DNA of 64,000 nucleotides from the NCBI RefSeq assembly GCF_002020355.1, contig NZ_MPZV01000003.1, positions 310,001 through 374,000 of the forward strand, read 5' to 3'. A program made the translations under genes and the position numbers. The notes below the pieces were generated by a model that saw only the letters and a list, made by a program, of their open reading frames with translations, made no database searches and was not told the origin of the DNA. Shown in pieces: positions 7,656 to 53,148 of the stretch. This stretch comes from Thioclava sediminum (GTDB lineage Bacteria; Pseudomonadota; Alphaproteobacteria; Rhodobacterales; Rhodobacteraceae). The number at the start of each line of letters is the position of its first letter. Position 1 is the first letter of the stretch.

Positions 7656-9503
7656 CTAGCGGGTCAGCACATAAGCCCCCGGCGCATCGCAGAGCGGGCG
7701 ATACTTGCGCCCCTTGCCTATGGGCGGCGGCTCGATCTCCTGCCCGTCGCCCGTCTTGCGCAGCCATTTCGCCCAAGGCTCCCACCACGACCCTTCGCGC
7801 GGCGCACATTCCGCAGCCCAGTCCGACGCGGAGGGGTGCAGCATGCCGGGGCGGTGCTCCATCAAACGGTAGCTCGCGCGCGGTGCACCCGGCGGGCGCA
7901 CGATCCCGGTATTGTGCCCGCCCGAGACCAGCGCGAAGGTGACCGCACCCGGCAGCGACCATGTTAGCTTGAAGACCGAATGCCACGGCGCGATGTGATC
8001 GGTCTGGGTCGCGACGGCGAAGACCGGCGTCTCGATATCCTGCAGGAAGACCGGCGCGCCGCGCGTGTCCATCCGCCCCTCGGCCAGATCGTTGTCGAGA
8101 AACAGTCGGCGCAGATATTGCGAATGCATCTTGTAGGGCATCCGCGTCGCGTCATGGCTCCACGAGGCCATCGCGCCATCCGTCTCGCGCTCGCCCATCA
8201 GATAGGTATGGACCGCCTGCGACCAGATCAGGTCCTTCGATTTGAGCATGGTGAAAGTGCCCGCCATCGCGGTCTTGTCGAGATAGCCCTCCTCCCACAT
8301 CATGTCTTCGATCAGGCTGAGCTGGTCTTCATTGGTGAACAGGCTCAGTTCCCCGGCCTCGGTGAAATCGACCTGCGCCGCCAGCATCGTGAGCGAGGCC
8401 AGCCGATCATCGCCATCGCGCGCCATCGCCGCCGCAGCGACCGACAGAAGCGTGCCGCCGAGACAATAGCCCAGCCCGTGTACCTTTTCCGCCCCGGTGA
8501 TCTCGCAGACCGCATCGAGCGCCGTCATCACGCCCTCTTCGCGGTAATCGTCGAAGCCCAGATCGCGGTCGCCCTCGTCGGGGTTCTTCCACGAGATCGC
8601 GAAGACAGTGAAGCCTTGCCCCACGAGCCAGCGGATCAGCGAATTCGTCTCCTCCAGATCGAGGATGTAATATTTCATGATCCATGCCGGGACGATCAGC
8701 AGGGGCACCGAATGCACCTTCGGCGTGCTGGGCTCGTATTGCAGCAACTCGATCAGATCGTTGCGCAGCACCACCTTGCCCGGCGTCAGCGCCACGTCGG
8801 TTCCCGGGATCAGCGTGGGCTCCGGCTTGGTGTCGCCGGTCATCACCTTGAACGCATCCTCGCCCCAATAGCGCGCCCCGCGCATGAGGTTCACCCCGCC
8901 CTCTTTCAGCGTCTGGGCAAGCACCAGCGGATTGGTCGCGATGAAATTCGTGGGCGACGCCATGTCGAGCCATTGCCGGGCGTAGAACTGCATCATCTGC
9001 TCGTGGCGTGCCTCGACCCCGCGCACATCGGTCGTGGCGTTGTGCCACCATTGCTGGGCATGGAGGAAACTCTGCGCATAGAGGGAATACGGGAACTTCT
9101 GCCAATCGGGCGCAGAGAAGCGGCGGTCCTGCGGCAGCGGCTCGAGCGGCTGCGCGCCCTCGTCGTCGCTCCGGTGCGGCGCCATCTCGCGTAGCAGGTG
9201 CATCCATTTGCGACCCGCCTTCCAGCCCAACTCGGCCTGCTTGCCGGGGCTGAGCGCAAGATGGGTCGCCCAATCGGAAAACGCGAGCCCGAGCGAAATC
9301 GGAGACAGCCCGCCTTCGGCCCGGCCCATCAGCGCGTGAGTCAACCGATCGAGCCGCTCGAACGAGGCCAGCGCGGCGCTGTGCTCCTCGGCCAGAGGCG
9401 TGTCGGCCTTGGCAGATTTGCCCGCAGCTTTCCCGGCAGCCTTGCCCTCGCCCTTGCGGGCGCCCTTGCGCGGTGGCGTTTTGTCTCCGGCCATATCCTT
9501 CAT
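7656..9503 (-). CDS. phaC: Class I poly(3-hydroxyalkanoate) synthase PhaC
   Basis: Polymerises hydroxyacyl-CoA into PHA storage granules. The 615-aa length fits class I. The lipase-like box with the catalytic cysteine is GYCLGGTLLS, followed by the catalytic Asp in TQTDHIAPWHS and the catalytic His in SGGHNTGI. The first 45 or so residues are a Lys/Ala/Gly-rich tail (KGARKGEGKAAGKAAGKSAK) resembling DNA- or granule-binding histone-like tails. The ATG at 9503 follows TAGGAGG with an 8-base spacer. phaA, phaB, phaR and phaZ are not adjacent; a phasin gene is at 4544. Confidence 0.95.
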   Translation of the reverse strand: MKDMAGDKTPPRKGARKGEGKAAGKAAGKSAKADTPLAEEHSAALASFERLDRLTHALMGRAEGGLSPISLGLAFSDWATHLALSPGKQAELGWKAGRKWMHLLREMAPHRSDDEGAQPLEPLPQDRRFSAPDWQKFPYSLYAQSFLHAQQWWHNATTDVRGVEARHEQMMQFYARQWLDMASPTNFIATNPLVLAQTLKEGGVNLMRGARYWGEDAFKVMTGDTKPEPTLIPGTDVALTPGKVVLRNDLIELLQYEPSTPKVHSVPLLIVPAWIMKYYILDLEETNSLIRWLVGQGFTVFAISWKNPDEGDRDLGFDDYREEGVMTALDAVCEITGAEKVHGLGYCLGGTLLSVAAAAMARDGDDRLASLTMLAAQVDFTEAGELSLFTNEDQLSLIEDMMWEEGYLDKTAMAGTFTMLKSKDLIWSQAVHTYLMGERETDGAMASWSHDATRMPYKMHSQYLRRLFLDNDLAEGRMDTRGAPVFLQDIETPVFAVATQTDHIAPWHSVFKLTWSLPGAVTFALVSGGHNTGIVRPPGAPRASYRLMEHRPGMLHPSASDWAAECAPREGSWWEPWAKWLRKTGDGQEIEPPPIGKGRKYRPLCDAPGAYVLTR

Positions 9504-9789
9504 CCCGCAGCCTCCTAGCGTTGCGATTCCGCGCAGAACTTACCGCAAAACCGATGACAGTGGTTTGACCTGACGCAAGAGAACGCGCCACCGCAACGCC
9601 TCACGCAAATAAGAGCCGATCTCACATGGGCGGGAGGCGGATGAAATATCGGAACTGAGGCATTGCTGCATCGGTTCACCCTGCACATCTCGAGACGCAA
9701 GGGCAAAGGCGAGATGGCAAACCGGGACACGCCACCCCCGGGGAGCGCTGTCCGCTGCCGATGCCCCGCGACATACGGATACGACATAC

Positions 9790-9931
9790 GGAAAGGCCGG
9801 GTTTCTCTCTCCACCCTTCCCTCTGCCCGGGTTTCCGGCACGACCTGCTTCCGGGTTCTCCTGTCTCTCTTGCCCGGAAGCAGGCCCCTTCACTCCCAAC
9901 TCCCCGCCCCTCTCGGGCGGGGCTTTTCTTT
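9790..9931 (+). ncRNA. Candidate trans-acting small RNA with three hairpins and intrinsic terminator
   Basis: Three consecutive hairpins lie in a gene-free gap. Hairpin 1 pairs GGAAA-GG-CCGGG (9790-9801) with CCCGG-G-TTTCC (9826-9836) around a 24-base C/U-rich loop. Hairpin 2 is a perfect 12-bp stem, CCTGCTTCCGGG (9844-9855) with CCCGGAAGCAGG (9873-9884), and its 17-base loop contains CTCCT. Hairpin 3 is a perfect 8-bp CCCCGCCC/GGGCGGGG stem (9902-9922) followed by CTTTTCTTT, an intrinsic terminator that works only on the plus strand. The single-stranded linker 9885-9901 contains CTCCCA. C/U-rich unpaired anti-Shine-Dalgarno segments are typical of alphaproteobacterial riboregulators (AbcR, CcsR types). 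The 5' end and promoter are not determined. Confidence 0.7.
9902..9931 (+). terminator. Intrinsic terminator of the candidate sRNA
   Basis: Perfect 8-bp stem CCCCGCCC (9902-9909) and GGGCGGGG (9915-9922), loop CTCTC, then CTTTTCTTT. No plus-strand protein gene ends upstream (mnmA and the ligase are far away), which is itself evidence for a short non-coding transcript. Confidence 0.85.
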
Positions 9932-10018
9932 GCCCGCCTCACCTGCGCGATAGAGCACGCAAGCCTGCGCGCGGCCGCGGGGTGACACCGTGCGCCTGCG
10001 TGCTAGCTATGCCCGGTC

Positions 10019-11494
10019 ATGTTGAGCAGGCTTCGAGACAATATCATTCCGCTGACGGTCGCGCTGTCGCTCCTGATGGAGCTGATCGACGCGACCGTTC
10101 TGGCGACCGCGATCCCGGTGATCGCGCGGGACCTTTCGGTGCCGGTGCTGTCGCTCAAGATGGCGATGGCGACCTATCTGATCGCGCTCGCGGCTTTCGT
10201 GCCGATCTCGGGCTGGATCGCGGATCGCATCGGGGCGCGGCGGACCTTCCTCGCGGCGATGGGCGTTTTCCTTGTGGCCTCGCTTCTCTGCGCCATTCAG
10301 ACGAGCCTGACCGGGCTGGTGCTGGCCCGCGCGCTGCAGGGCATCGGGGCTGCGATGATGAGCCCCGTCGGCCGGTTGATCGTGCTGCGCCACACCTCCA
10401 AGGAGGAGATGACCCGCGCGATGGTCTATGTCACCCTGCCCGCGCTGATCGGCCCGGCGCTGGGCCCCTTCGTGGGCGCGACGGTGACGACCTTCCTCGG
10501 CTGGCGCTCGATCTTCCTGATGAACCTGCCGCTGGGGGCGCTCGCGATCTGGCTGACGCTGCGCCACATGCCCGCCGACGGCCCGCCCGAGCCGAAGCCG
10601 TTCGATTTTCCGGGCTTCCTGCTCTCGGCCGTGGGGCTGGCAGCCGTGATGACCGGGTTTTCCGCGCTGGGCGAGCATATCCTGCCATGGCAGGCCGCCG
10701 CGGGCCTCAGCGTTGCGGGTGTGGCGCTGCTCGTCCTCTACTGGCTGCGGGCGCGCAACACAGAGGAGCCGCTTCTCGATCTGCGGCTGTTCCGGCACCG
10801 CACCTTCGATGTCTCGATCACCGGCGGGTTGATATTCCGACTGTCGAACGGGGCGATCTCGCTTCTGCTGCCGCTGTTCTTCCAACTGGGCCTCGGTGCC
10901 TCGGTGATGGTCTCGGGCGCGCTGACGGGTCTGAACGCGGTGGGCGCGGTAAGCCTGCGGACCTTCGTGCCGCGCATCCTCGACCGGTTCGGCTTCAAAT
11001 GGGTGATGATCTGGGCGGCGGTGATCCGCGGCGCGACGATCTTCGGCTTCCTCACCGTGACGAGCATCCATGACTGGCAACTGATCCCGCTTCTGCTGAT
11101 CGGCGGCGCCGCGCAATCGGTCGTCTTCACCGCGATCAACTCCATCGGGTTCGCCGATCTCGATACGCGCGAGATGAGCCCCGCCACCGCCTTCACCGCG
11201 ATGAGCCGTCAGGTCTCGCTCGCGCTCGGCATCGCGCTGGCGGGCGTGGTGCTGGAACTGACCGCAGGGTCGGCGGCGACCACGACAGGGGCCGAGATGA
11301 TCCCGATCCACGCCTTCCTCTGGGGCTTTGCGATTGCGGGCGCGACGGGGCCGCTCTCGGCGCTCTATTTCCTGCGCCTGCGCCGGGGCGATGCCGACGG
11401 GCTGCGCCGCAAGCGCCGGACGGTGGAGCCCTATGGTTCGGCCAAGGAGCGCTTCCGCGCCCCGCAATCCAAGCAACGCGAACCAGCCGAATGA
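10019..11494 (+). CDS. MFS transporter, multidrug-type (DHA2-like)
   Basis: A 491-aa integral membrane protein with 12-14 hydrophobic segments. The first helix LLMELIDATVLATAIPVI is typical of the drug:H+ antiporter DHA2 group, followed by loop motif A GWIADRIGARRTF and the motif-C-like GPALGPFVGA. The substrate cannot be read from the sequence. It precedes an AsnC regulator and the dehydrogenase/aminotransferase pair on the same strand, separated from the regulator by 66 bp, so it may or may not belong to that pathway. The C-terminus ends in a basic, soluble tail. Confidence 0.85.
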   Translation: MLSRLRDNIIPLTVALSLLMELIDATVLATAIPVIARDLSVPVLSLKMAMATYLIALAAFVPISGWIADRIGARRTFLAAMGVFLVASLLCAIQTSLTGLVLARALQGIGAAMMSPVGRLIVLRHTSKEEMTRAMVYVTLPALIGPALGPFVGATVTTFLGWRSIFLMNLPLGALAIWLTLRHMPADGPPEPKPFDFPGFLLSAVGLAAVMTGFSALGEHILPWQAAAGLSVAGVALLVLYWLRARNTEEPLLDLRLFRHRTFDVSITGGLIFRLSNGAISLLLPLFFQLGLGASVMVSGALTGLNAVGAVSLRTFVPRILDRFGFKWVMIWAAVIRGATIFGFLTVTSIHDWQLIPLLLIGGAAQSVVFTAINSIGFADLDTREMSPATAFTAMSRQVSLALGIALAGVVLELTAGSAATTTGAEMIPIHAFLWGFAIAGATGPLSALYFLRLRRGDADGLRRKRRTVEPYGSAKERFRAPQSKQREPAE

Positions 11495-51772: not shown

Positions 51773-51963
51773 AAATTGCGCAATCGCCCCCCGCGGCTTT
51801 CACGAATTTGCACATAACCCCAAATTGCCGTTACGTCGCATTGCGCGCGCCTTGACCTTCGGGTCCGTTTTTCGCGTCATCGCGCCACTCGCGGTTCTTC
51901 ACATTTGACGAACCGCGCACTAACCTCGCGCAAGAACGCGAGTTCCAACACGGGAGTGAACAC

Positions 51964-53148
51964 ATGAAAAAACTGCTTCTGGCTTCGGCTGCGATCGCGC
52001 TTGGCGCGACTGGCGCATATGCCGATGACGTGAAGATGGGCGTCCTGCTGGGCTTTACCGGCCCGCTTGAATCGCTCGCCCCGCCGATGGCGCAGGGTGC
52101 CGAGATGGCGATCAAGGAAGTCTCCGATTCCGGCAAGCTGCTGGGTGGCGACACCGTGACCGCAGTCCGCGGCGACTCGACCTGCGTCGACGCAGCAGCC
52201 GCGACCGCGGCAGGCGAAACGCTGGTCACCACCGACAAGGTCGCTGGCATCATGGGTGCAATGTGCTCGGGCGCGACCACCGCTGTCCTGCAAAACGTCG
52301 CCATGCCGAACGGCGTCGTGATGATCTCGCCCTCGGCGACCTCGCCGGCACTCTCGACGCTCGAAGATGACGGTCTGTTCTTCCGCACCGCTCCGTCGGA
52401 TGCGCGTCAGGGCGAAGTCATGGCCGACGAAATCCTCGAGAAGGGCATCAAGAACGTCGCCGTGACCTACACCAACAACGACTACGGCAAGGGTCTCGCC
52501 GACAGCTTCGAGAAGGCCTACAAGGCCAAGGGCGGCAGCGTCACGATCTCGGCCGCGCACGAAGACGGCAAGGGCGACTACTCCGCTGAAGTCGCATCGC
52601 TCGCTTCCGCAGGTGGCGACGCGCTCGTCATCGTCGGCTATATCGACCAGGGCGGCTCGGGCATCCTGCGCGGCGCGCTCGACACCGGCGCCTTCGAGAC
52701 CTTCGTCTTCCCGGACGGCATGGTCAGCCAGACGCTTGAGGACAATTTCGGCTCGGAAATCAACGGCTCCTTCGGCCAGCTTCCCGACTCGGCAGGCGAC
52801 GGCATGAAGACCTATCTCGGCATGGCCGAGAAAGCCGGGTTCGACGGCTCGTCGGCTTATTCGGGCGGCGCCTATGACGCGGCGGCTCTGATGCTGCTCG
52901 CGATGCAGGCGGCGGATTCCACCGACCCGAAAGTCTACAAGGACAAGGTCATGGAAGTCGCGAACGGCCCCGGCGAGAAGATCTATCCCGGCGAGCTGGG
53001 CAAGGCGCTCGACCTGATCAAGGAAGGCAAGCCGGTCGACTATGAAGGCGCGACCGCCGTCAACCTGATCGGCAATGGCGAAGCCGCGGGCACTTTCCGC
53101 GAAATCGCGATCAAGGACGACAAGATCGAGACGGTGAAATACCGCTAA
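51964..53148 (+). CDS. Branched-chain amino acid ABC transporter binding protein (LivJ/LivK-type)
   Basis: A 394-aa type I solute-binding protein. The signal peptide is MKKLLLASAAIALGATGAYA; the mature part begins DDVKMGVLLGFTGPLESLAPPM, the two-lobe Leu/Ile/Val-binding fold with VAGIMGAMCSGATTAVL. GGGAGTGAA stands before the ATG, and it is exactly complementary to an unpaired segment of the candidate sRNA at 9889-9897. A hairpin terminator follows the gene, which would separate its high expression from the downstream permease genes. Confidence 0.93.
   Translation: MKKLLLASAAIALGATGAYADDVKMGVLLGFTGPLESLAPPMAQGAEMAIKEVSDSGKLLGGDTVTAVRGDSTCVDAAAATAAGETLVTTDKVAGIMGAMCSGATTAVLQNVAMPNGVVMISPSATSPALSTLEDDGLFFRTAPSDARQGEVMADEILEKGIKNVAVTYTNNDYGKGLADSFEKAYKAKGGSVTISAAHEDGKGDYSAEVASLASAGGDALVIVGYIDQGGSGILRGALDTGAFETFVFPDGMVSQTLEDNFGSEINGSFGQLPDSAGDGMKTYLGMAEKAGFDGSSAYSGGAYDAAALMLLAMQAADSTDPKVYKDKVMEVANGPGEKIYPGELGKALDLIKEGKPVDYEGATAVNLIGNGEAAGTFREIAIKDDKIETVKYR

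Follow-up and report, generated by a model that had tools for sequence, protein, structure and literature searches.

Several described bacterial small RNAs (sRNAs) resemble the locus analysed here. GsrN, an EcfG/SigT-dependent sRNA of Caulobacter (PMC5869019), and ReC64 of Rhizobium etli (PMC3892343) both combine an EcfG-type promoter motif with an exposed C-rich loop that pairs with mRNA. The motif of R. etli is GGAAC-N16-CGTT, and an ncRNA carrying it was mapped by 5' RACE (PMC3892343). Other sRNAs derive from the 3' UTRs of mRNAs, as do SorX and PcrX of Rhodobacter sphaeroides, and the MalH/MicX locus yields a pair of sRNAs, of which one arises by processing and the other has a promoter to itself (PMC9438474). 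The alpha-r8 family (RF00519; MmgR of Sinorhizobium and SisA-D of Caulobacter; PMC12559287) presents a hairpin, a C/U-rich unpaired stretch and a terminator. Finally, the stress-related CcsR1-4 RNAs of R. sphaeroides (PMC8307010) possess C/U-rich motifs and are co-transcribed with a protein gene.

The window, i.e., the whole 64,000-nt stretch of the Thioclava sediminum genome that was analysed, spans 310001-374000 of contig C3 (genome G000) and contains a plus-strand element between a PHA synthase gene and an MFS transporter gene that shares features with each of these systems. Like GsrN and ReC64, it presents an EcfG-type promoter-like motif and exposed C-rich sequence, but it has three C/U-rich segments and probably began as an oxidoreductase gene's 3' UTR (a comparison at the level of features). 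GsrN-like sRNAs typically lie near phyR-nepR-ecfG, Caulobacter crescentus being an exception; the element is on contig C3 and this stress locus on C4. As for SorX and PcrX, the element directly follows a gene, together with an apparent terminator, in five genomes, whereas seven genomes, including the source genome, have no host gene at the locus. The layout of hairpin, C/U-rich unpaired stretch and terminator is that of alpha-r8, whose conserved 10-mer is UUUCCUCCCU. This 10-mer has no match in the window, and membership of the family was rejected (18.0 bits at 9876-9938, with a gathering score of 41). CcsR1-4 belong to the same bacterial family, but the host gene of the element is a different one. 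The CcsR motif, CCUCCUCCC, is not found in the element and matches the window at 2668, 8288 and 33907 only.

Results

Structure of the element and its surroundings

An earlier note on this DNA, made from the sequence alone, described three serial hairpins with their loops and a T-rich tail; upon rechecking the sequence, we found all of them at the coordinates it had given (Table 1). In hairpin 1 (H1), positions 9790-9794 and 9797-9801 pair with 9826-9830 and 9832-9836 around a loop of 24 nt, and the stem can be extended by one pair, C9789-G9837. The stem of hairpin 2 (H2) consists of 12 perfect pairs, and CTCCT lies within its loop. Hairpin 3 (H3) is formed by eight perfect GC pairs (9902-9909/9915-9922) and is followed by CTTTTCTTT at 9923-9931. 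Scanning 9500-10100 for terminators yielded three sites relative to 0.4 expected, two of which correspond to the H3 hairpin. The plus-strand fold of 9790-9936 reached -63.6 kcal/mol (z -4.65), and none of 200 shuffles was equally stable. Fold energy alone cannot assign the strand, however, because the minus strand is close behind with a z of -4.26. In a fold of 9789-9931, H1 gives way to pairing of the 5' GGAAAGGC with the tail of the terminator; by itself, the H1 segment is no more stable than shuffles in the source genome (z -0.95).

Table 1. Features of the element, its locus and a candidate target in the window.
Feature	Position	Strand	Remark
phaC2 (second PHA synthase gene)	7656..9503	-	Pfam PhaC_N
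EcfG-type (general stress response) promoter-like sequence, GGAAC-N17-GGTT	9651..9676	+	conserved in carriers
Relict RBS (GGCAAAGGCG, 9702-9711) and start codon (9714-9716) of absent gene	9702..9716	+	compare GGCAAAGGAG...ATG in G003 and G001
H1 with C/U-rich loop (9802-9825)	9789..9837	+	CGG/CCG base in 12/12
H2, stem 9844-9855/9873-9884, C/U-rich loop 9856-9872	9844..9884	+	covariation
Unpaired C/U-rich spacer, UCACUCCCAACU	9885..9901	+	CCCA in 12/12, CUCCCA in 11/12 carriers
H3 and T-rich tail, intrinsic terminator	9902..9931	+	terminator scan, covariation
Promoter-like block of MFS gene, GTGACA ... TAGCTAT	9982..10010	+	conserved; 3' of terminator
MFS transporter gene	10019..11494	+	Pfam MFS_1
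Candidate target site GGGAGTGA before ATG of livJ-like substrate-binding protein (gene 51964-53148)	51952..51966	+	complementary to spacer; 5/5 genomes

The same note held that no protein gene on this strand ends here. Our ORF check agrees: the element is not the end of any sizeable plus-strand gene that has a plausible start, and the 96-aa ORF at 9663-9953 was rejected as such a gene. The presence of a terminator without a gene is explained by relatives that possess a plus-strand gene at this place, of which the element is the 3' UTR (see below).

The other genes around the element encode a DNA ligase, an Lrp-type regulator, an aldehyde dehydrogenase and an aminotransferase. The phaC2 product is 38% identical to the canonical PHA synthase encoded elsewhere in the genome; close forms (76% or more) were observed in 8 of 16 Thioclava genomes and more distant ones (45-53%) in three. 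The MFS gene starts 88 nt past the terminator tail on the same strand as the element. In the source genome and at L106, L107, L108 and L112, the block CTAGCT[AT]T stands ~10 nt 5' of the MFS start codon, and the longer GTGACA...TAGCTAT block may be the MFS promoter. No sigma-70 promoter was found by a scan of 9500-10100, this block included. The sequence GTGACA...CTAGCTAT (within 9982-10019) reaches to ~8 nt from the start codon with no RBS visible in between, which suggests a leaderless MFS mRNA. In G003, a gene for a DUF3096 small protein (L106, 7624-7791) separates the element from the MFS gene, and similar sequence is found at the matching position in G001 (L107).

Distribution of the element

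Model searches detected the element in 12 of 16 Thioclava genomes. Model R1 was built from eight genomes, which it recovers at E <= 8.6e-13. Weak matches were obtained in four more (G005, 34.9 bits; G008, 27.7; G002, 27.7; G013, 24.1; E 3.1e-4 to 0.084), for which the R1 score alone is insufficient because other Thioclava genomes also give weak matches. A separate protein search placed the matches of G005, G008 and G002 ~115-150 nt 3' of a FAD oxidoreductase gene, and the G013 copy, which comes after a ligase gene, has the same promoter-like sequence upstream. These four divergent copies served as the training set of model R2, whose scores for them are therefore not independent. With a pattern derived from the element, four matches were found in a collection of named genomes: T. 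pacifica, T. atlantica, T. marina and Thioclava sp. JE_KL1. A tree of the canonical PhaC splits the 12 carriers from G004, G007, G010 and G011 by a well supported branch, and does not resolve the order of the three main clades. The source genome contains one full match to the element, the rest having E values of 0.3-7 in a search at E <= 10.

No element match was detected in plasmid and phage collections, from which records of very near genomes may be missing. Searches of the bacterial family (295 genomes for R1 and 394 for R2, with about a dozen of the better matches read) revealed no convincing homolog in other genera. At E <= 1, R1 matched 131 of the 295 genomes, two of them Thioclava, and many rows among the matches listed span just the terminator part of the model; at E <= 0.01, R2 matched 21 of 394, again with two Thioclava. 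Near the dozen or so better matches read in other genera, we found no promoter motif, the one upstream of L148 being 949 nt away. Three loci of other genera (L140, L141 and L144; 27.7-34.8 bits) combine a hairpin, a C/U-rich stretch and a terminator and have no match in Rfam; we judged them to be other RNAs or terminators, although a remote kinship is possible. Separately, L141 (1501-1596) and L144 (1501-1591) have in common a hairpin, the stretch CTTCCTCCCTGTC[AG]ACTGGCCGCGCC and a terminator, and possibly represent another family of C/U-rich sRNAs. By these searches, the RNA is found convincingly in Thioclava only. Rfam 15 yielded no match at gathering threshold in the window or at the loci of seven relatives; the best score below threshold was that of anti-hemB (23.5 of 49.5 bits).

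Conservation of stems, segments and strand

Stem conservation in relatives had been named by the earlier note as a check on its small RNA candidate. H2 and H3 indeed recur in 12 genomes, and 7 of their 20 pairs are changed on both sides. Across the alignment of the 12 homologs, 95.8% of 240 cells are paired: 93.1% in H2, with both sides changed in 5 of 12 pairs, and 100% in H3, with both sides changed in 2 of 8. The shuffle mean for double-changed pairs was 4.7, and 11 of 500 shuffles reached seven; cells with a double change numbered 21 relative to a shuffle mean of 7.6, and no shuffle out of 500 reached this value. These double changes represent few events, since most of them separate eight genomes from four. 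The number of standard pair types was no higher than in shuffles (11 vs 11.7), and shifting the partner by one to three columns reduced pairing to 34-60%. Eight wobble cells pair on the plus strand only and two on the minus strand only, so the plus strand is favoured.

H1 varies in sequence and length around its invariant base. All seven representatives that were folded form a hairpin closed by CGG/CCG (z between -0.83 and -4.99); its z ranges from -2.9 to -5.0 in five of them and is not significant in the source genome and T. marina. The unpaired segments are C/U-rich throughout the carriers, and CTCTCTC occurs somewhere in each of the 12.

Relative to T. nitratireducens, the core of the element (9844-9922) is identical at 74 of 79 positions, the leader at 79 of 107 and the sequence after the terminator at 77 of 92, with four-fold sites identical at 206/270 in the aldehyde dehydrogenase gene and 231/315 in the MFS gene. 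The corresponding values for T. atlantica are 63/79, 40/107 and 51/92, and 177/263 and 150/262 at four-fold sites. Neither species has the host gene at the locus, which indicates that the core is kept without it.

Promoter-like sequence and stress locus

Upstream of the unit, all 12 carriers present GGAAC-N17-[AG]GTT, a near-consensus EcfG promoter motif of the kind that precedes GsrN-like sRNAs (a likeness of motif only). The source genome possesses a complete stress locus with adjacent phyR, nepR and ecfG (L135, contig C4 of G000, around 38287). The gap before phyR and nepR contains GGAAC-N17-CGTT and GGAAC-N17-AGTT in opposite orientations, and a third match to the EcfG-type motif lies inside phyR. 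The motif GGAAC-N16/17-[ACG]GTT is not rare (2 in the window vs 2.0 expected), so the evidence for a promoter consists of conservation and position. On these grounds, 9651-9676 is likely the promoter of the element, which would then be under EcfG control. A transcript of 130-150 nt had been proposed in the earlier note; with this likely promoter, a primary transcript of ~250 nt is expected unless it is trimmed.

The absent oxidoreductase gene

Five of the 12 carriers (G003, G001, G005, G008 and G002) present the order promoter, FAD oxidoreductase gene, element, and in these the element forms the 3' UTR between stop codon and terminator. The host gene is absent from the locus in the other seven, including the source genome, where the promoter-like sequence is still present. 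A protein search did not find the oxidoreductase gene anywhere in the source genome. The host protein is a Pyr_redox_2-type flavoprotein, whose nearest PDB entry is 3h8i, called NADH oxidase (E 1.1e-46), followed by sulfide:quinone reductases (SQR); its score falls well short of the NCBIfam cut-off for SQR.

The phylogeny of the five oxidoreductase copies matches that of the species, with moderate support (80/86) for one branch. Because G013 nests with the gene carriers, a gene loss is needed there, barring a double entry into the slot. The RBS, GGCAAAGGAG in the gene carriers G003 and G001, has become GGCAAAGGCG at the relict start of the source genome and GGCATAGGCG or GGCATAGGCA in two relatives. 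These remnants of start signals speak for an independent loss in the clade of the source genome, given a tree in which the three main clades are unordered. In T. atlantica, the gene may have been lost or may never have been present. Gene and RNA do not always go together, for copies of the oxidoreductase gene that lack the element were found on a T. nitratireducens plasmid and in a single genome of a different genus (1 of 149 searched). The copy at L122 (G009 contig 3, plasmid NZ_CP019439.1) is 73% identical and lies on a plasmid typed as conjugative; by eye, a transposase-like reading frame seems to come after it.

Candidate targets

An anti-Shine-Dalgarno role of the C/U-rich segments is plausible. 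The word GGGAGTGA was found within 12 nt of an ATG 9, 14, 13, 11 and 18 times in five genomes, and the reversed pattern 3, 3, 2, 4 and 3 times, an excess that any Shine-Dalgarno-like word would show. Four starts with GGGAGTGA are kept in all five genomes searched (those of the livJ-like protein, a PstS-like protein, GroES and a DUF6691 protein), and two are kept in three of five each (HypD and a Bmp-type substrate-binding protein). Ortholog groups were built among GGGAGTGA matches only, such that orthologs lacking the site are invisible to this count. Two of the nine matches in the source genome were excluded as doubtful genes (L178, 60 aa, and L210, 130 aa), and the word is kept at 5 of the remaining 7 starts. 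As controls, in 200-kb blocks of G000 and G015, the GGGAGNNN word before orthologous starts was kept in 2 of 9 cases, and the figure for any Shine-Dalgarno 8-mer was 10 of 32; the difference from these controls was not significant (Fisher p 0.13 and 0.08). The livJ-like and other GGGAGTGA sites are suggestive as targets, a lead rather than a result. The phaC2 start region was also considered and rejected as a target: its duplex energies with the three segments (-21.8, -15.1 and -16.0 kcal/mol) are fairly strong but inside the spread of 40 starts of the window.

Discussion

Our sequence comparisons establish that the plus-strand element is conserved and structured, includes a terminator, has a promoter-like sequence in common across carriers and occupies a place after a gene that is absent here. 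The small RNA proposed in the earlier note is supported by the conservation of its stems, by the H1 hairpin in 7/7 representatives and by the lack of an Rfam family at threshold. The latter, and a blunt search of literature titles that found no description, also bear out its view that the RNA is undescribed. Our preferred reading, which we consider fairly probable, is that the locus is the gene of a trans-acting sRNA of the general stress response, formerly a 3' UTR and now stand-alone, that pairs with Shine-Dalgarno regions. The EcfG-type promoter would start a transcript of ~250 nt ending at the terminator (9931), which may be trimmed before H1 to ~145 nt. This RNA would expose its C/U-rich segments in the H1 loop, the H2 loop and the spacer before the terminator. 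The segments are predicted to pair with G-rich Shine-Dalgarno regions and to block translation, perhaps of mRNAs for ABC transporter substrate-binding proteins and a few others.

Promoter and RNA have outlasted the protein gene here, so that the RNA appears to be what selection has maintained at the locus. It is conceivable, at somewhat less than even chances, that the locus was a stress operon whose conserved output was the 3' UTR RNA, the enzyme gene being a dispensable passenger that was lost on more than one occasion while the stress promoter before it and the sRNA after it stayed fixed, giving rise to a stand-alone sRNA gene in place.

Alternatively, the element might be a relict, the 3' UTR, terminator and promoter of a deleted gene, that is transcribed without function. 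Relatives have a gene exactly in this slot, and the clade of the source genome keeps decayed start signals, as a relict would lead one to expect. Yet in gene-less genomes the core is better conserved than the leader and four-fold sites, and the unpaired C/U-rich segments, not the terminator alone, are kept in 12 of 12 carriers, which makes this origin unlikely. We consider it just as unlikely that the C/U-rich segments titrate a G/A-rich sRNA or an RNA-binding protein instead of acting on mRNAs: the presence of several similar segments in one RNA would suit such a sponge, and Caulobacter has a described sRNA sponge (PMC12559287), but this RNA has no known partner.

The short distance to the MFS gene (88 nt) on the same strand could also suggest a transcription attenuator or riboswitch-like leader of that gene. 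This appears very improbable, because a conserved promoter-like block lies between the terminator and the MFS start, the distance grows to ~430 nt with an intervening DUF3096 gene in G003 and G001, and a different gene follows the element in G005, G008, G002 and G013. An mRNA for a small protein starting at the ATG at 9714 is the least credible explanation, for although an ATG follows the promoter in the seven gene-less genomes checked, the seven ORFs (79, 79, 110, 74, 99, 33 and 48 aa) have no common end or frame, those of the clade of the source genome run past the terminator and the RBS has decayed in that clade.

If the sRNA reading is true, the element would represent a new family of sRNAs and, for the Rhodobacterales, a probable sRNA of the general stress response. 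The relatives, some of which have the host gene and some of which do not, would then constitute a natural series for a direct test of how stand-alone sRNA genes originate from the 3' ends of mRNAs.
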